From positions 365,258 to 402,619 of the forward strand of contig NW_008705589.1 in NCBI RefSeq assembly GCF_000186865.1: DNA of 37,362 bases, read 5' to 3'. Position 1 is the stretch's first letter; each line of letters begins with the position of its first letter. Both the position numbers and the translations under genes were made by a program. Origin of the DNA: Aureococcus anophagefferens. Taxonomy: Eukaryota > Sar > Pelagophyceae > Pelagomonadales > Pelagomonadaceae. Shown in pieces: positions 7,266 to 30,258 of this stretch. Below the pieces are notes generated by a model that had not been told where the DNA came from, ran no database searches, and worked only from the letters and a program-made list of their open reading frames with translations.

Positions 7266-7982
7266 TTATTCCTGGTATACCTCCAAGGCCTCGATGGCCG
7301 CTCTCGTGAGCCCCCAAACCTCATCGACGTCCCCAGCCGCGGGCACGGCGATGAGCTTCCCGCGTTTCTTGAAATGCTCGATGATTGGCCTCGTCGACTC
7401 CTCGTACGTCCTGAAGCGTTTTAGGGCAGCCTCTGCGTTATCATCACTCCGCCCGCTCGTTTCCCCGCGCTTCATAATACGTTCTTGCATGACATCATGG
7501 GAAACGTCGTAAAAGAGGACGCCTCCAACGTCCGTCACGTCCGACATGAGTTCGTCCCATCCCTCGAGATTGTCCGAGTTCCTCGGGAAGCCGTCGATCA
7601 CGAAGGTGTGCGCCACAGAGGCCTGCATAGCCTTGCGGATCAGGTTCAACGTCACGCGCACGGGCACAATCTTCCCCTCGGCGATGTAAGCCTCGATGAG
7701 TTCGCCGTCAGCGCTACCGGACGCGCGTTCCGCGCGCAGCAGATCACCCGCCGAGAGATGCACGAAGCCGAACTCCGCCTCGAGCTTGGCGCATTGCGTT
7801 CCCTTGCCTGCGCCGGGACCGCCGAGGCAAAAAAGCACACGAGCCTTGCGCGCATCTCCGTCGGCGCTCGAGTCGCGCGCGATCACGCGCGATCGCGGTT
7901 CATGCCTCGAAGACAAGGCCACTGGCCGCATCGCGCGCACGAGGGACGTCGCCGCGATCGTGAGCGTCAATTTACACCGCAT
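7266..7982 (-). CDS. UMP-CMP kinase (nucleoside monophosphate kinase)
   Basis: It transfers phosphate from ATP to UMP, CMP or dCMP in pyrimidine nucleotide synthesis. Visible motifs are the P-loop GGPGAGKGTQ (about residues 54-63), LSAGDLLRAE, the NMP-binding FVIDGFPRN, and the short lid RIMKRGETSGRSDDN, which is typical of UMP-CMP kinases and not of long-lid adenylate kinases. The C-terminus contains KRFRTYEESTRPIIEHF. The core is preceded by about 45 residues that are basic and contain few acidic residues (MRCKLTLTIAATSLVRAMR), which could be an organellar targeting peptide. ATG at 7980-7982 is chosen because the open frame extends upstream only to a GTG codon at 7994. There is no intron. 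The flank upstream of the start carries a motif shared with another gene (7995-8030). Confidence 0.93.
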   Translation of the reverse strand: MRCKLTLTIAATSLVRAMRPVALSSRHEPRSRVIARDSSADGDARKARVLFCLGGPGAGKGTQCAKLEAEFGFVHLSAGDLLRAERASGSADGELIEAYIAEGKIVPVRVTLNLIRKAMQASVAHTFVIDGFPRNSDNLEGWDELMSDVTDVGGVLFYDVSHDVMQERIMKRGETSGRSDDNAEAALKRFRTYEESTRPIIEHFKKRGKLIAVPAAGDVDEVWGLTRAAIEALEVYQE

Positions 7983-7994
7983 TCTCTTTTTCAC

Positions 7995-10011: not shown

Positions 10012-12260
10012 CTACTTTTTCTCCTTTTCTTCGTCGAGATTGTAGTAGTCGCCCTTTTTCTTTTGCTCCCGGTCCAACACGGAGTTGAGCTTGTTGATTC
10101 GGGGGCGGAAGTTTTCAGGGTCGCGACGGAAAGTGATGTCGAGTTTTTTCAGGAACGTGTTGAAGCCGTCGGCCGGGGAGAGGGGGGCGCCGGCGGTGCA
10201 CTCGATGCCTGGTTCTCCACGGTAGACGACAACGCGATCGTAGAGCGCGGTCGCCATGACAAAGTCGTGCTCGATGATGAAGGCGGTCTTGCCGAGGTGA
10301 GAGACGACCCAGCGTTTCATCACCTTGGCACATACGATGCGCTGCTCCACGTCGAGGCCCGCCGAGGGCTCGTCGATGAGGTAGATGTTCGCTGGGGTGC
10401 CGAGGCAGACCGTGATGGCGAGGCGCTGGATCTCGCCGCCGGAGAGGCTCTTGACGGGAAGGTTCTCGATCTTATCGAGGCCGAGAGGCTTCATCACGAG
10501 GAGACGGAAGAGGCGGTCCCCGAGACCGTGCTGGATGCGCGCCTCGAGGAAGTCCTGGACCGTGCCTGGGAATTTGCGGAAACGCGGACCGACGTGCTGG
10601 CGCTTGTAGGACACGCCAAGGTGCTTGAGGCTGTGCTTCTTCCCACCCTGCGCCCCCGACGCGTCCTTGCCCTGCTTATCAGCATCGGCCTCGTCGTAGG
10701 ATCCCGCGAGCATAGACATGAACGTCGACTTGCCGCAGCCGTTCTCGCCCATGAGGCCGACGATCTCGCCATCGCGGAATGCGCCAGCCTCGACGTGCAA
10801 CGTGAAGTCCTCTCGATCCACCTTATCCGAGGTGAGCGTGCGCGTCATGGCCGGATACGAGTGGCTCGGGACCTTCTTCTTGCCGTCCTTGTCGACGGCT
10901 GCTGCGCCCGGGCCGCCGCCCGTTGCCGCCTGCGCCTCGGCAAGCTGCGCGTCCTGGACCGACACCTGAAAGCTCAGGGCCTCGGCGCGGAAGCGCATGT
11001 TCTCCGCAGAGAAGTAGCCCGCGAGGAACTGATTAATGCCGTTGGCCGCAGACTGGCGCTTGGTCACGACACCGTACGCGCCTGCGCGGATGGCGCTGTC
11101 CAGCCATTGCGCCGGCGCGACGCGAGCCTCCCCGAAAATGACGCCCCAGCTCGGCCCCGTCGCGCGCAATCGCCCCGGGTCTGCTTCTCTCCTCGAGACC
11201 TCCGGAGGCGGACGATGGCGCGCGCACTCCTCGAGTCGGCCCGTGTCGCATCGGACGGGCCGGCGACCCGCCTTCAGCGCCGGCGCGCGCCAGGACCGCC
11301 GTAGAGGCAGCAGACTGCGTCGCTCATGTGGTCCAGCACTGTCAAGTCGTGCTCGACGACGACAACGTAGGTGCTCTGCGCCTTGCGCGTCGCCTCCGCG
11401 GCGCCACTCTGGCCGTCGCCGTCCTTGTAGCTCCCCGCCTCGACTAGGCCGCGGATCGCGGACGAAGCCGCCATGCGCTGCTTGACGTCGAGGAAGCTCG
11501 ACGGCTCATCGAAGAGGTAGACATCGGCGTCGATGCACAGGCACCGTGCGATGGCGAACCGCTGGAGCTCCCCGCCGCTCAGCATCTGCACCTCGCGGTT
11601 GAGGAGATTCCTGAGGTCGAGCGCGTCGATCATTTCTTCGCTCTTGCCGCGCTCGTCGAGCTCTTTGAGCGACGCACCCACGGTTTTCCCGACGAACTTG
11701 CGAGCGAGCTGCGGCTCCAACTGCGGCTTCACCACCACCCGCAGTCGGTCCTCGCACAGCGCCGTGAAGTAGTTCTGCAGGTCGCTCCCCCGGTAGTAGC
11801 CAATGATGTCCGCCCAGCTCGGCGGCGTGCCTCCGATGACGCCCAGGTTGGGCTTGATGCGCCCGCTCAATGCGTGGATCGCCGTCGACTTGCCGATGCC
11901 GTTTGTCCCCAAGAGCCCAAGGACCTGCCCCGGCCGGGGCGTCGGTAGCCCGTGGAGCACGAATGCATTCTCCCCGTATCGGTGCGTCATATCCGTCTCC
12001 AAATTCGTCGGCAATTTCACGATGGACACCGCGCCACCGGGGCAATGCTTTGCTCGCGTCAGGCATGCCATGCAGAGGTCCTCGCTGATGCGCACCAGTT
12101 TTCCCTGCACCTCGATGCACGTCTTCCCGCACTTTCCCGCGTACTGTTTCAGGAACGCATAGGCCGCAGAATTCGGCTTGCACTTCTCCGGGTCTAGGAT
12201 CAATATCCGACGGTCAACGGCCGTCGTGTCCTTGGCTTTGCGCTTGGCAAGAGCGGACAT
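10012..12260 (-). CDS. ABCE1: ABCE1 / RLI1 ribosome-recycling ATPase, with altered Fe-S ligands
   Basis: ABCE1 splits post-termination ribosomes and aids initiation. Two exons (12260-11291 and 11081-10012) give 679 residues. NBD1 has GTNGIGKST, LSGGELQRFAI, YLFDEPSSFLD and VVEHDLTVLD. NBD2 has GENGCGKST, LSGGEIQRLAI, YLIDEPSAGLD and IIEHDFVMAT. The C-terminus DITFRRDPENFRPRINKLNS is diagnostic. The 209-nt intron needs a GC donor (CTG|GCGCGC) to give LYGGPGAYGVVT without loss; a GT donor would delete two conserved residues. Oddly, the N-terminal Fe-S region keeps Cys27, 44, 48, 63, 66 and 73, but the canonical C-x4-C-x3-C-x3-C-P block is replaced by residues 28-43, and the third cysteine of the second motif is Arg69. 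A 20-residue insert lies before the NBD1 H-loop. The start ATG at 12260 is the last one before the conserved region. Confidence 0.94.
11082..11290 (-). other. GC-AG intron in ABCE1
   Basis: 209 nt, phase 1. Donor side CCTG|GCGCGCGCC, acceptor side GCGCAG|GCGCGTAC. The word GGCGCG occurs at both junctions, so the exact cut could slide, but only the GC-AG placement ends in AG. Confidence 0.65.
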
Positions 12261-12645
12261 CACGCGTCCCTGCTGTCCGGCGACTGGCGACTGGCGACCC
12301 ACCGAGGGCACCGTGAGTGCACCGTGAAGTGCTTCTGTTTCCACCCACTTGATCTACCCACTCGTACGAAACTTGGCCTCACGGTCGCCTGGTATCATCG
12401 AAAGCCGGGGTTCGGAAATCGATCTTATGGAGAACTCCTCCCGCTCGGCAGCCTCGTGTCGCCCCACTGCGGGGTGCTCGGCCCGCGCCAAGCTGGTGGC
12501 GCTCTGCGCGCGCGTCCTGGTACTAGGAGACTTCGGCACCAATAGACGATGTCAGATTGACTTTCCAACAAACTGTATCACTAAGTTTGCGTCGGTATTG
12601 GTGCTGTTCTCCCCGGGTATTCTAGGGGCACTAGCGCGGACTCTC

Positions 12646-14436: not shown

Positions 14437-16292
14437 ATGGGACCATGCTCGAGCCGCCCGCGGCTTCGCCTAAACGAGAACCTCCTCAGCACGGCCGACT
14501 TTTCATCAAAATACATCAAGAAAGTGACGCGAGGTGATGGGAAGAGGGAAAATCTTGTTCTGGGCCAAGGGAGCTTCGGGAAGGTCGTCTTAGTAGAAGA
14601 GAGGGCGACGCGCAGCGTAATGAGGGCTCTTTGGTCCATTATCTTGGATCTACTTCACCTGACTGGGGCAGTTTGCGAACTTGATGAGGAGAGAACGGCT
14701 CGAGTCGAGAGAGACGGTAATAAGGCGCAGCTCATGAGTGTACCGTGACTCCTCGATTACTTTTTCAGGACGACATCCAACGTAATATTGGGGTCCCGAA
14801 GACTAAGAACTCTCTTTGTCATTGCGGTAGGCAACGAAGGACACTTTTGCTCTGAAAATGATCGTGAAGCGAAAGCGAAGTGGCGGAAACGCAAAGCTGC
14901 TGGAATCGTTGCAGACTGAGATAACCATCCTCCAGCGGTGTGGGTCACACGAGAACGTGTTGCAGCTCTTCGACGCGTTTGACACGCCTCGGCGTGTGCT
15001 GCTCGTGATGGAGCTCGCGACGGGCGGTGACCTGCTCGGCTGGGCGACGGACGTGCACCGGCCGTTCAGCGAACGGCACGCTGCGAGCGCGACGGTTCAA
15101 ATCCTTGGTGCCATTGCTTTCCTCCACGCTCAGGGCATCGTTCATCGCGACATCAAACCTGACAACGTCCTCGTCCGGGACCGAGGGAGCTTTGTGATCA
15201 AGGTTGCCGACTTCGGATGCAGCAAGATTCTCCCGATCGCCAAGAGGGGCGGTGCGCCCAACGGAGATAGTGATCTCGGGAAGCCTATCATCAACGACGA
15301 CGCCTCCGAGCACGAAGCTCTCATGGAGACCTTCGTCGGAACCAAAGTCTATGCCGCGCCCGAGATCCTCCGGCACGAGCCCTACGATGCGACAGTGGAC
15401 GAGTACTCGACGGGAATCCTCCTCGCATTGCTTCTCACGGGGACACATCCACTCAGCGATGTTGAGATGGACACCAACCTCGCGCTCGCCAGTAGCAATG
15501 CTCAGCGCGGGACTTCTTTCTTTCGTACACAAGAGAGAGGCGTGGCAAATTTCTGGCTGCTTTTCCACAGGCGATGTGGCGCATCTCATCGATTTTCGCT
15601 GCGCCAGCTGGCATTCGGTCGCGCCCGAAGGGGTCGAGGTGGTCAAGGCTCTCGCGAACACAGACCCTGCGCTCCGGCCGACAGCAGACGCCGCCCTCGT
15701 GAGTTTCAAGTGGCTTGCAGATTTTGAGACTCTGGCCGACGATGCGCCGCTCTCCGATGATGTACTCTGTCGGCTTCGGAAACTTCGTGTCGATGGGGTG
15801 CAGGCCTTGGCGCTCCGCCTCGCCGCAACGTCCGGTGCCCGTGGTGCGTCAGCGAGCTATTCTTCCTTCGCTACGGCCACCGACAGCCTCTTTGAATCCC
15901 TTGACGCGGATGCCACGGGGATGCTCAGAAGGGCAGAGCTCGTTCACGCGGCCGAAGCAAGCGGACTCGGCGCGAACGACCTCGACGTCGCTTTTGACAA
16001 CGCGGATCTTGATGGGACGGGCGTCGTGAGTAAGGATGAGTTGCGGGCGGCGCTTCTTTGTTCGCACCACGAGCTACTCGAAAGTCTACTTGTCGTTGCA
16101 TTCGAGAGGATGGATGTCAGCAAAACCGGCACCATCTCAAAGCAGGACATTGTTGACGCTGCCAAGAGCGTCGGCATCAAGAGACTGGACATCAAAGATG
16201 TCGGTGCATGGATCGCCGCGCACGACGAGGCCGGCGACGGGGTGCTTTCATTTTGTGAATTCAAGAATATGATGGAGCGAGTCACGGAATAA
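14437..16292 (+). CDS. Calcium-dependent protein kinase (CDPK) with four EF-hands
   Basis: A calcium-activated Ser/Thr kinase of the plant, alveolate and algal type, probably membrane-associated: it begins MGPCSS, an N-myristoylation-type start next to a palmitoylatable Cys. Three exons (14437-14616, 14831-15491, 15571-16292) join in phases 0 and 1 to give 520 residues. The kinase domain shows LGQGSFGKV (42-50), Lys69 in FALK, HRDIKPDN (165-172), DFG (187-189) and APE (236-238). DEYSTG replaces the usual DxWSxG. Subdomain XI is DPALRPTADAAL. Four EF loops follow with correct ligand spacing: DADATGMLRRAE, DLDGTGVVSKDE, DVSKTGTISKQD and DEAGDGVLSFCE. The introns are canonical (GTAATG...GGTAG; GTAGCA...CCACAG). 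The activation segment is long, about 45 residues between DFG and APE. Confidence 0.93.
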
Positions 16293-26368: not shown

Positions 26369-29300
26369 TCATCGCAGTGGTTTGAGGAATGGTGCCCCAA
26401 CATCAATCTCACTGTCGTTAGGCAGGTCATAATCTTCAAACCAGGCTCGAAAGGCCGCATCGGCCCCAAGGTCCCAATACTCGTCGGCGCGTGCAGCTCC
26501 TCCAACCTCACCTGACGCCACGGGCGCCCACATCAGGCTATACTGGCGTTGGGCCCATGCGGCATCACTTACTCGTTGGGAGTTGTCGTTCGAGGCGGCA
26601 AAACGGGTCATTTTGTCGCGGCCGGCGCGAGTCAGCGGCTGAGCCGCACGCGCGTGACATGACCTGACATCAACGCCGGCGAAAAATTCGTGGCTCACGA
26701 GGCTCGCCATGCTTGGGCGTTCGCAAGGCTCGCGCGAGAGAAGCACGAGTTCAAGGGCTGCTGCGTTCCCGTTCAGAGCTCGAACGTTGGTACCTAAAGA
26801 GCACGAAGCCCAGATTCATGATCGCAGAGTGGCCGAAACCAAGTTGACGTCGGAAGTTGCCAGCACTGCCATCGAATGCAAGGATCAGCGCCCGGCTGGT
26901 CTCTTCGTCTTTTGACGAAAATCTTGGGCGCGCCTCCACGCAAAAGTGCAAAACGCAACCGAGGGCCCATGCGTCCGCTGCCGTCGTCGGCCCCGCGCCC
27001 TCAACCTGATCGTAGCGTTCGAATTAAAGTGAATTGCAGAGACATGAGCCCGAATATTTGACCAAGAGAGAGCCACACCGGAACTTGACGCACTCTGGCG
27101 CGAGATAGAGTGTAGTGCCTTCAACCTGTTGGTAGAAATTCAAGAAAAACGATGCTCGACGTTTCGGTAAAACGCAATTTCACAAGTCTTTGTAAGATGC
27201 GTCACACCGGAGTTGGCCCGGCTATCATCAAACTCTTTGTCAGTTGCAAGGATAGCGTTCGCCTAGTTATCGGGATGACAGCATGCCAGTGCAAAGCACC
27301 AATATTCAGTCAGTGCGGGTGGGATGTGCGCCGGAGCATGCCAGGCCGGTCTCGCCGTTTTCTTTTAATGCGGGTTGCCAGTCGCCTGGAGGATGGGCTA
27401 AGTTCGATTTCAGAAGCGACAAAGGAGCAGGCAGTTCTTCACTCCGGGTAGGACCATTTCGAAGATCAGCGATGGTGCGCCGCTGCGCTTCGCGCAGCGC
27501 CGCTTGTGCACTTTCGGTGACGCCACGTGCGGCACCAAAATCAGTGACCTTAACGTGGCCGGCGCCTGCGGCGAGCGATGCACGCCATGAGCCGAGAATC
27601 ATGGGGCGTCGCCGGACGCGAGTCCAGCGCCTGTCAGGAGGACATTCTCTGGTTTGAGGTCGCCGAAGCAAAAGCCCACATCGTGGATAGCCTCGAGCCT
27701 GCGTTTTCGGGGGCGGCTATCAATGTGGGGGCTCTGCCACGTCGTCCTCGCTGGCGCGGGAGCCCCGCGCAGCGACAATCGAACCGAGGACAAAGACGGT
27801 AGCATGCGTGTCGAGGGCCCCCTCTCCTACTACGGCAGAGTGGAGGTCACCGTTAGCAGCGTATTCAAGCACCAGATACCTGGAAATCCGCCTTTGGGCA
27901 AAGGTAGTCCAATAGCCCACACCGGTGCCGCGCGCATCCGATCGCCATCGAAAGCTTGAGAGGAGGCGAGCAACCCCAGGGTGCGAGATGCGCGCTAATA
28001 CGGCAATCTCCCGCGCAATCTGCGCGACGCTATCGAGCTCCTTTGGGCGCGCTAGTCATAGACACGGACCCCTGGACGTTGCGTTCGTATTTGTGTTGTA
28101 TGACTTTGGCCCGCGAGATAACCTTCACCGCATATTCGGGCCAGGCAGACCCGGCGAGTGCATGCTTAGTGGCCGCAGCTCCCTTGAGGATGCGGCGCGC
28201 GTACTTGACCACCTGCCATTGGAAGGAACGCATGCTTAGGAGTCTATAATTGAACAAACGCCCAGGCGAACGAGGCCTTCCAACGGTTCCTGCCACTGTG
28301 GGACGGAGCACGCCGAGGCGAGGCGAGTGGCACACGCTCTAAAAAGCTCTCTTCAAAAAACCTTCTCCTCACCGGACACCGGCATCAACGCCAAATGCGC
28401 CACGCCCAAGTTCTTTGCCAAAGACGAGATCGTGAAATTTGAGATCTGGGAGGATGGCCGGCGCTTCAGCAGTCAGAGCCGCCGCCCAAGCGCGTCGAGC
28501 GGCGTCGGCCGCGCCCTCAGCTGAGAGGCCCGTCTCTCTGTCGACGGGAGGCGCAAGCTTGGCTGCGAAGGCCCGTACAAAGTCGAGGCCCTGGAGACCC
28601 TTCGGGCCCTCAGGGGTCGTGGGAACCGCGAGGGAGGCGCCCAACCCCCCAGGGGTGACACCTAGGGTCCGCGGCAGCGGCGCGGACCGCCGGAGCGGCC
28701 GCGCTGTGCGCGCCCAGGGAGCTACGCCAGTGACTGTCGTAGGCGGTGGCGCACCGCTCGTGGGCACCCAGTCCCGAGCTGCTCGCGCGCCATGCACAGC
28801 GGCAGCCACGTTCTGCGCGTTTGACCCCGGCGCGGCGGCAGAGCAGGCAGCGCCTCTCTCTTGTTCCGGTTCTGAAACGTCTGCCGCGGCTGCGGCGAAG
28901 GCCCCATTATCGAGCGACTCGAGGCGCTCCAGCACAAGCACCTATGCCCAAACTCTCCCTGCAGTGCCCGCGCTGCCGCGCTTGGCGCTCGTTCGCCCGC
29001 ATATGTGCGGCCGGCGTCGCAGCCTGGCGCGGGGACGCGGCGCCACACGGTCATCCGATTCACCGTCGGATTCCAGTGCGGTTTGCCGCTGCGGAGAAGT
29101 GCGGGTAGGAGAACCCTGATCAGCGAGTGTGCTCGACCTATGGGTGCGGGACTCCTCGCCTCGGCGGTGGAGACTTGTCGTGGGCACCGTGGCTCCGCCC
29201 GTGGCGCGCGCGCAGAACTCGTCCCGGCGCCAGACATGGAGGCCCTTTTCGACGAGGCGCCAATTTTCGGATCTAACACACGCCGCAAGGCGGTCGATGT

Positions 29301-30258
29301 AGCGCGGGAAGCAGCGGTCAAGTGCTCGGTCGTCAACGGCAAAGGTCGTGGCGAAGGGTCCAGTGTGTGCGGCGCGCGCGACGAGGAGTTCCTCGAGGGT
29401 CACGAGGAGCAGGATTTCCTTGCTCGTTGACGCGGACGAGGAAGCGGGCCAGGCGTCCAGGATGCCGAGTACCTGCGACGTGAAGACTATTCGCGAGAAG
29501 CTCTTGGAGAATCCTGTGCGACGTCACACTTGTCGCTTCGTGAAGTCTAGTCTTTGTTGACGACTGCGGTTGTCATAAAAAAAATTTACTGCGCCGCCGA
29601 ATACGAGGTCCGCACCGTGAAGGGGACTTATCCGGATGACACCGAGGCAACATCCCTGGAGCTCGGTCGCGTACGAGCCGATGAGCGGTAGCTGGTCGCG
29701 CCACTCGGCGAATTCACTTGGGAGCCAAAGCGGAAGGAGCGCGCGCTCGAGCAGTGCGCCGGCGGCGGGTGCGGCCAAGGCCGCATCCCGCCGCTCCGAG
29801 AGCGCGTAAAGGACGGCCTGTAGCACTCCAAGCACGGGTGCAATGGCCCACCGCCATCGCGGTGCCTGCCTGTACGCGTCTACCTCCGACCCAAACGCGA
29901 GCCGCATTGACGACCGCTGGCTCTGGCACGCAGCGTACGCCGCGATGAGCGCCCGCTTGATCCAATCACGCTCAACAGCTGGCGGGCACTGTCGCAACCT
30001 CCCCAGGAGCGCATCGCATAGCCCATCGTCTACAAGCGCCGATATCTGGTTTGCCTCGGCTTCGCGCATACACTCAACCAGAGTCTGCAGCTCAGGCGTC
30101 AACTCCCCGACCAGCCCTTCGTTCCAGTTTCTCACCGCGCGCTCCTCAGACCACGCTTTGGAAAGTGCTATGATTCGGGCTCGGGCTGACGCCGGCGCCG
30201 GCGCGCCGAGCAAGTTACATGATGCCGTGTCGTGACTAGTCTCAACGTCGCTCGACAT
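26369..30258 (-). CDS. Fusion of PP2A B56-type regulatory subunit and Ser/Thr protein kinase
   Basis: Thirteen phase-consistent exons (30258-29641, 29472-29214, 29137-29049, 28941-28390, 28212-28078, 28040-27934, 27879-27769, 27698-27631, 27565-27455, 27385-27342, 27125-27090, 27005-26867, 26760-26369) give 886 residues. Residues about 60-345 match the B56 HEAT fold: ERDWIKRALIAAY, ALLERALLPLWL, SKEILLLVTLEELL, RLAACVRSENWRLVEKGL, VLLPALLRSGKPHWN and VLVLERLESLDNGAF. After a 140-residue Ala/Pro linker comes a complete kinase: GKELGRGAFG (497-506), Lys536, FGDLKPENVL (Asp637), DFG 655-657, APE 707-709, DAWALGC and ERPSMASLVSHEFF. HRD is replaced by FGD, so it is a non-RD kinase. Exon 28941-28390 spans the B56 end, linker and glycine loop without a break. 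Several introns need GC donors. The E5/E6 and E10 junctions and the 5' start (the frame is open to a GTG at 30369) are less certain. Confidence 0.82.
28390..28941 (-). other. Single exon linking B56 domain to kinase domain
   Basis: 552 nt with no stop and no need for an intron. It begins with the last B56 helix (VLVLERLESLDNG) and ends with the kinase glycine loop (GKELGRGAFG). The intervening about 140 residues are rich in Ala, Pro, Gly and Thr. This exon is the physical evidence for the fusion. Confidence 0.8.

Follow-up and report, generated by a model that had tools for sequence, protein, structure and literature searches.

Cells usually link kinases with phosphatases through scaffold proteins distinct from both, and BubR1 has a kinase domain. 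According to a review, the PDK1-interacting fragment (PIF) pocket of the kinase PDK1 recruits hydrophobic-motif substrates, and a charge at Arg131 is required for activation by a pocket ligand (PMC6327997). The PP2A regulatory subunit B56 gamma of humans reads short peptides with a groove: the main chain of the peptide is positioned by His187 and Arg197, the pocket for its Ile is formed by Tyr190 and Ile231, and Lys240 and His243 bind the motif Glu, H187A or R197A abolishing BubR1 binding (PMC4930772); an acidic loop of B56 is described in reviews as critical for holoenzyme formation and C-subunit binding (PMC7072873, PMC9608770). Here we analysed a 37,362-nucleotide stretch of Aureococcus anophagefferens DNA (contig NW_008705589.1, positions 365,258 to 402,619; hereafter the window) that holds a gene in which a B56 domain is predicted to precede a kinase in one protein. 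We propose, with a probability of roughly 0.5, that this PDK1-derived kinase has moved its docking function to the groove of its captive B56 half, perhaps gated by its own tail.

The minus strand from 30258 to 26369 encodes, in our own spliced models, a B56-linker-kinase protein in a single frame. The coordinates, strand and domain order given by a first-pass annotation of this DNA are borne out by the Pfam matches of the spliced model and by a tblastn search, and its thirteen exons are not: our models have 11 (968 amino acids, with variants of 921 and 985), the exon number not being fixed at 27522-27126 and 26866-26794, each of which allows several lawful splice choices. In the 921-residue model, B56 (PF01603) matches residues 59-375 at 58.2 bits (cut-off 25, E 9.4e-16, profile positions 119-394 of 413), close to the residues 60-345 where it had been expected, and Pkinase (PF00069) matches residues 522-818 at 116.9 bits (cut-off 31.7, E 1.4e-33). 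By itself the unspliced, contiguous segment 29472-28945 reaches E 0.0011 for B56, under the family cut-off, and exon 1 alone and exon 4 alone gave no Pfam match. With the B56 half as query, eight PDB sequences scored at E<=10, every one of them a B56 subunit (best E 2.3e-5), and the top PDB match of the kinase half is PDK1 (E 2.3e-21). Knowledge of B56 and kinase sequences guided part of the choice of splice sites, and the fusion was therefore tested independently by searching the raw, unspliced window DNA with a relative. The protein P0001 of Chrysophaeum taylorii gave a single tblastn high-scoring segment pair (HSP) that spans B56, linker and kinase (P0001 29-575, window 30150-28075, 292 bits), followed by further collinear HSPs down to 26387; the top score against 20 shuffled windows was 29.6 bits. 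The junction exon, 28941-28390, comprises 184 open codons without a Met and contains the B56 end, the entire linker and the kinase glycine loop, which rules out that a kinase of its own starts from an ATG there in the same frame. Thus the domain boundary does lie inside an uninterrupted exon, and this open exon, together with the single HSP on raw DNA, supports the claim that the fusion does not come from joining two neighbouring genes. A chance resemblance to B56 was rejected, given the score above the cut-off and the match of a relative to raw DNA. A PF01603 search of the whole genome listed only two ordinary B56 loci and not the window locus, because this scoring runs exon by exon. The Foldseek and VIA fold-match lists for fusion models were filled by kinases and hence carry no fold-level information on the B56 half; the 50 listed matches with a name in a viral structure library were all kinases.

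Three homologue searches returned at least 65 different database proteins annotated with both PF01603 and PF00069 (26, then 20 new, then 19 new), a lower bound because the third search took the best 120 of 393 matches. This co-occurrence, which the first-pass annotation had proposed to look for in other algae, includes a pelagophyte, diatoms and Chrysoparadoxa. Hosts include Chrysophaeum taylorii, Thalassiosira sp. AJA248-18, Seminavis robusta, Mayamaea pseudoterrestris, Chrysoparadoxa australica, Nitzschia inconspicua and Cylindrotheca closterium; the four of these seven lineages that were looked up are all Ochrophyta, and we take the remaining three to be diatoms. Moreover, P0010, P0027 and P0056 are open reading frames (ORFs) of de novo transcriptomes that carry the fusion. 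Among the 66 proteins formed by the window and these 65, the order B56, linker motif, kinase holds in 62; P0027 is without the linker motif, and three are truncated models that do not reach a catalytic loop that could be scored. In the linker, the core TG-x(1-4)-APW is found in 65 of the 66, once in 26 proteins, twice in 35 and thrice in 4. We conclude that the predicted B56-kinase fusion is real and lies in one polypeptide. Its presence in diatoms and other related algae points to an old, conserved signalling protein. Neither this conservation nor the PDK1 lineage of the kinase was foreseen by the first-pass annotation. As a separate observation, P0077 and P0076 are annotated as B56 only, yet both continue through the linker motif into the kinase start and then into unrelated residues, P0077 breaking off 3 residues past the point where the window gene has its intron 4 and P0076 later; they are likely fusion genes cut at an intron.

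The descent of the kinase half was examined in a quick tree of 46 rows, of which 24 were fusions (the window, 22 of the 65, and P0026, whose precomputed annotation is without B56); 12 of the 15 kinase loci tried from the genome itself yielded a row. All 24 fusion kinases formed one clade (Shimodaira-Hasegawa-like approximate likelihood ratio test, SH-aLRT, 99), and they shared a clade (95) with the PDK1-type rows, outside which stood the remaining AGC kinases of the genome as well as the other kinases. A family profile run against PDB kinases placed PDK1 first at 223 bits, the next listed kinase being RSK2 at 180. Judged by its sequence, the fusion kinase derives from the PDK1 lineage. A separate PDK1 is also present in the genome: a single ORF of 651 codons holds its kinase domain (C1:680226-681062, 43% identity to human PDK1) and, after it, a PH_3 domain (681333-681650), and the kinase has both the HRD motif and an S-F-E-G-T T-loop. 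This locus ranks only seventh by E-value in its genome with human PDK1 as the query; we call it PDK1 on account of the PH_3 domain, the HRD motif, the serine in the T-loop and the 43% identity. In the tree it stood beside the fusion clade (support 82) and not among the other PDK1-type rows. The notion that the fusion is the genome's only PDK1 or B56 was rejected: with this PDK1 and the two ordinary B56 loci found by the PF01603 profile, the fusion is an extra, derived member. No PH domain was matched in the spliced window protein up to E 10 with Pfam, and many PDK1-type rows are likewise without PH_3.

We then compared the 24 fusion rows with 11 PDK1-type rows, numbering columns by human PDK1. 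Lys111, Glu130, Asp205, Lys207, Asn210 and Asp223 are retained in 24/24 fusion kinases; the kinase thus retains the catalytic Lys, the alpha-C Glu, the catalytic Asp and the DFG Asp, the residue set expected of an active enzyme, and all catalytic residues checked support the complete kinase that had been claimed. In contrast to the PDK1-type rows, Arg204 of the HRD motif is found in 0/24 fusion rows (0/63 of the 66 proteins, three short models not being scorable), and Ser241 of the T-loop in 0/24, with Arg instead in 20; the window's own Ser241 column hinges on an uncertain splice. In the PIF pocket, Lys115 is kept in 3/24, and Arg131, Thr148, Gln150 and Leu155 each in 0/24, the window having Arg, Ile, Ser, Arg and Ala at 115, 131, 148, 150 and 155. 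Among the PDK1-type rows, Arg204, Ser241, Lys115, Thr148 and Leu155 are present in 11/11 and Gln150 in 10/11, and position 131 is Lys or Arg in 10/11. The one row that departs from this at 131 belongs to the PDK1 of this genome, with Ser131 and also Glu in place of Ile119. Judging by these predicted residues, neither end of the T-loop phosphate switch remains in the kinase, and most of the PIF docking site has gone as well.

The B56 half was long enough to be scored in 61 of the 66 proteins. Groove residues that are kept are Tyr190 (61/61), Arg197 (61/61), Arg201 (60/61) and Ile231 as I or V (59/61). The window keeps Tyr190, Arg197 and Arg201 and has Ile, Ala, Ala and Ala at 187, 188, 240 and 243, the four positions at which the genome's canonical B56 retains His187, Arg188, Lys240 and His243. 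The acidic loop, which reads EEDEP in the ordinary B56 of this genome, has no counterpart in the fusions: across its five columns none of the 61 rows reaches 3 acidic residues, although 7 of them show a loose acidic-Pro pattern at some place in their B56 half. The acidic patch fares little better, Glu276 being kept in 10 rows, Glu310 in 8, Asp313 in 1 and Glu316 in 2. The best PF01603 stretch begins at profile position 102 or later in the 9/9 fusion proteins tested (P0011 has an additional second stretch beside its best one, its place not shown), and since the genome's ordinary B56 matches the profile from position 69, the acidic loop falls near positions 91-95. The E-value of the family match is as low as 6.4e-62 in P0008, and a WRDQ-type insert occurs in 58/61 rows. 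The predicted B56 half has lost a part tied to PP2A assembly and kept a core of the peptide groove. As for P0027, a EukProt transcript, the kinase tree places it as the sister of the remaining fusions; it keeps His187 and Arg188 and has lost the HRD Arg; it perhaps represents an earlier state of the fusion.

The third element is the C-terminal tail, which follows a W-x-[RKQ]-R-x-x-S motif in 61/66 proteins (five without WxRRxxS were left out of the tail counts; 57 have both a scored tail and a scored B56 half). The tail carries a box of the form x-x-I-x-E ... F, with I, V or L in 55/57, Glu in 54/57 and a conserved terminal Phe in 59/61. In AlphaFold2 models of P0001 and P0017 the HEAT and kinase domains are predicted with confidence and the linker scores low, whereas the tail box again scores well (predicted local distance difference test, pLDDT, 87 and 77 for P0001 901-920, 91 and 90 for P0017 961-980), with lower-scored stretches on both sides. 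Strict LxxIxE is found in 24/61 tails, against a mean of 0.87 and a maximum of 5 in 1000 shuffles. Of its 26 occurrences 6 fall at the box, and the other 20 lie outside it, each within 27 residues of the C-terminus. Leu at box position -3 is present in 10/12 proteins with His187 vs 0/45 others.

The joint pattern of losses in the kinase and B56 halves is most simply read as a transfer of docking to the captive B56 groove. A PDK1-derived kinase would be permanently joined, in a single polypeptide, to a B56-type HEAT solenoid. It would no longer require T-loop phosphorylation, so that phosphatases could not turn it off by the usual route, and would no longer dock AGC substrates through a PIF pocket; docking and positioning would have passed to the B56 groove, a reader of short peptide motifs. 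In most relatives the tail box of the kinase itself might compete in cis for this groove, as a latch, and assembly with the PP2A A/C core would be lost or much weakened. The retained groove residues, the excess of LxxIxE in the tails, the link between Leu at -3 and His187, the confident scores of the tail box and the missing acidic loop speak for this scheme. We suggest more tentatively that a phosphatase specificity code may here steer a kinase, the captured B56 serving as docking and self-gating module of a kinase beyond T-loop control.

Several observations weigh against this docking and latch scheme. The genome's own PDK1 also lacks Arg131 and Ile119, and part of the PIF change may therefore predate the fusion. 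His187 (13/61), Arg188 (1/61, in P0027), Lys240 (0/61) and His243 (32/61) are poorly kept, and the groove is consequently not a normal LxxIxE site. The shuffles of the LxxIxE count ignore the kinship of the tails. Since His187 changed once on the tree, its association with Leu at -3 counts as one event, and an independent-pairs test, for which the tree offered 1 pair, had no power. The box in the tail of the window protein is degenerate, with Pro at the I column and Asp at the E column, and no LxxIxE was found there, though the pelagophyte-like P0001 and P0003-P0006 have one near the C-terminus; the latch may therefore not work in this species. Finally, the groove is a conjectured docking place for the tail, and the box could instead be an AGC-type hydrophobic motif lying on the kinase lobe.

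Among the alternatives, a kinase-phosphatase machine is doubtful but survives best. The B56 half would still recruit PP2A A/C, so that a PDK1-like writer and a PP2A eraser act on the same AGC-type substrates. The B56 fold does extend across most of the HEAT array, the kinase is PDK1-derived, and the genome has AGC kinases with a T-loop Thr or Ser, one of which bears an F-x-x-F-T-Y tail. The missing acidic loop, the late start of the PF01603 match and the mostly lost acidic patch argue against it, the first being mildly tempered by the loose acidic-Pro pattern. This machine was the reading of the first-pass annotation, and its proposed recruitment of a PP2A core through B56 is weakened by the absence of the same loop and by an LxxIxE groove that appears only partly kept.

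Two further explanations concern the tail, and both are unlikely. It might act as a decoy or adaptor, its LxxIxE binding a separate, canonical PP2A-B56 in trans in the manner of BubR1 while its own B56 scaffolds or competes. The strict motifs, mostly outside the box and near the C-terminus, and the intact groove of the genome's canonical B56 would suit such a role. However, the motif is present in under half of the tails and not found in that of the window, and the confident AlphaFold2 scores, which lie within a monomer, fall on the box and not on the last residues. Just as improbably, the tail box might be an AGC-type hydrophobic motif packed on the kinase N-lobe, the B56 half having an unrelated role. 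In agreement with this, P0017 571-948 superposes on Akt1 144-446, the C-tail of PKA is likewise matched, and the box ends in a conserved Phe; P0017 931-950 is of low confidence, though (pLDDT 56 and 38). The aligned Akt ranges stop at 441-447 in both models, with none listed past 447, short of the hydrophobic motif, which we take to lie beyond these positions, and the PIF-site residues are changed. A misreading or misassembly that joined two neighbouring genes would be in keeping with splice choices that are our own and with a window gene known here from genomic DNA alone, but is very improbable given the open, Met-free junction exon, the order and linker shared by 62/66 proteins and the three transcript ORFs.

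Table 1. Predicted features of the fusion gene (window coordinates).
Feature	Position	Strand	Remarks
Whole fusion coding region	26369-30258	-	11-exon model, tblastn of P0001
Exon 1: N-terminus and first matched B56 HEAT repeats	29605-30258	-	Tyr190/Arg197 equivalents within 29943-29914
Exon 2: central B56 HEAT repeats	29199-29472	-	GC donor 29198, selected for agreement with P0001 length; GT donor 29174 equally lawful
Exon 3: B56 HEAT repeat	29049-29137	-	HWNPTVNRM
Exon 4: B56 end, Ala/Pro linker, kinase start (G-loop)	28390-28941	-	Uninterrupted, no Met
Linker motif	28711-28752	-	APPPTTVTGVAPWA, conserved
Kinase-domain entry	28417-28443	-	LKFHDLVFG, conserved
Exon 5: kinase beta-strands	28078-28212	-	Catalytic Lys (YAVKVI)
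Exon 6: kinase alpha-C Glu to hinge	27769-28040	-	GC donor 27768
Exon 7: catalytic loop	27631-27698	-	F-G-D-L-K-P-E-N, Gly for HRD Arg; GC donor 27630
Exon 8: DFG and long activation-loop insert	27330-27565	-	3' end uncertain, 27522 to 27330
Exon 9	27063-27125	-	VEGTTLYLAPE
Exon 10: DAWALGC region	26867-27005	-	3' end uncertain (GT donors incl. 26867, 26849, 26840)
Exon 11: kinase end and C-tail	26369-26793	-	WAQRQYSLMW (26557-26528); degenerate tail box DLPNDSEIDVGAPF (26428-26387)

The introns of this gene (29604-26794) have features of their own. In our model 4/10 are GC-AG, and 7/10 begin with the same two bases as the next exon; the start of intron 1, GTATTCGG, and that of exon 2, GTACTCGG, are identical at 7/8 positions. 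They look as if they had been inserted with target duplication. Elsewhere in the window, the plus strand holds a Prp19-like splicing factor at 201-1505 (PF08606 and WD40 repeats) and, at 14858-16292, a protein kinase (PF00069, E 1.9e-43) followed by EF hands in an overlapping ORF, which looks like a calcium-dependent protein kinase (CDPK)-like gene read in two frames. On the minus strand lie an adenylate kinase at 7266-7994 (PF00406, E 8.5e-44) and two adjacent ABC_tran ORFs at 10012-12344, presumably ABCE1/RLI-like. In the genome, C21:451240-452022 is a kinase domain within an 8992-codon open frame.

The first-pass annotation knew of no described protein with this order of domains. We likewise found no B56-kinase fusion described in the literature, as judged by titles and the starts of abstracts, subscription papers and preprints being outside this scope; the name of one database record, P0011, does list both domains. 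B56 is absent from the kinase accessory domains tabulated in section 8 of the Phytophthora kinome paper (PMC3019232), and the main text of the hybrid-kinase paper makes no mention of B56 or PP2A. Both parts belong to known families, and the combination and the shared losses appear new to us. In the fusion the coupling is part of a single chain, and it has been retained in diatoms and further ochrophytes, groups of great importance in the ocean. The fusion offers a direct test of whether a kinase can reuse the B56 peptide-reading code, and annotation of PDK1 and B56 signalling in these algae must allow for a third, fused player beside ordinary PDK1 and B56.

Compared with PDK1 (PDPK1, Pkh in yeast), the fusion differs by having no PH match, by the lost HRD Arg and T-loop Ser, by changes at most PIF-pocket residues and by a long activation-loop insert, and the genome keeps a separate PDK1 with PH_3. 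It resembles the B56 (B', PPP2R5) subunits of PP2A in its PF01603 match over the cut-off and in Tyr190, Arg197 and Arg201 of the groove, and differs from them in being joined to a kinase, in missing the acidic loop and most of the acidic patch, and in its WRDQ-type insert. The PKG-like proteins of Phytophthora and plants likewise hold phosphatase-related and kinase domains in one chain but, unlike the fusion, combine a phosphatase domain with inactive kinase and cyclic nucleotide (cNMP) domains (PMC3019232). BubR1 likewise couples a kinase fold with B56, through its LxxIxE motif (PMC4930772); its B56 is a separate protein, whereas in the fusion B56 is covalently attached.

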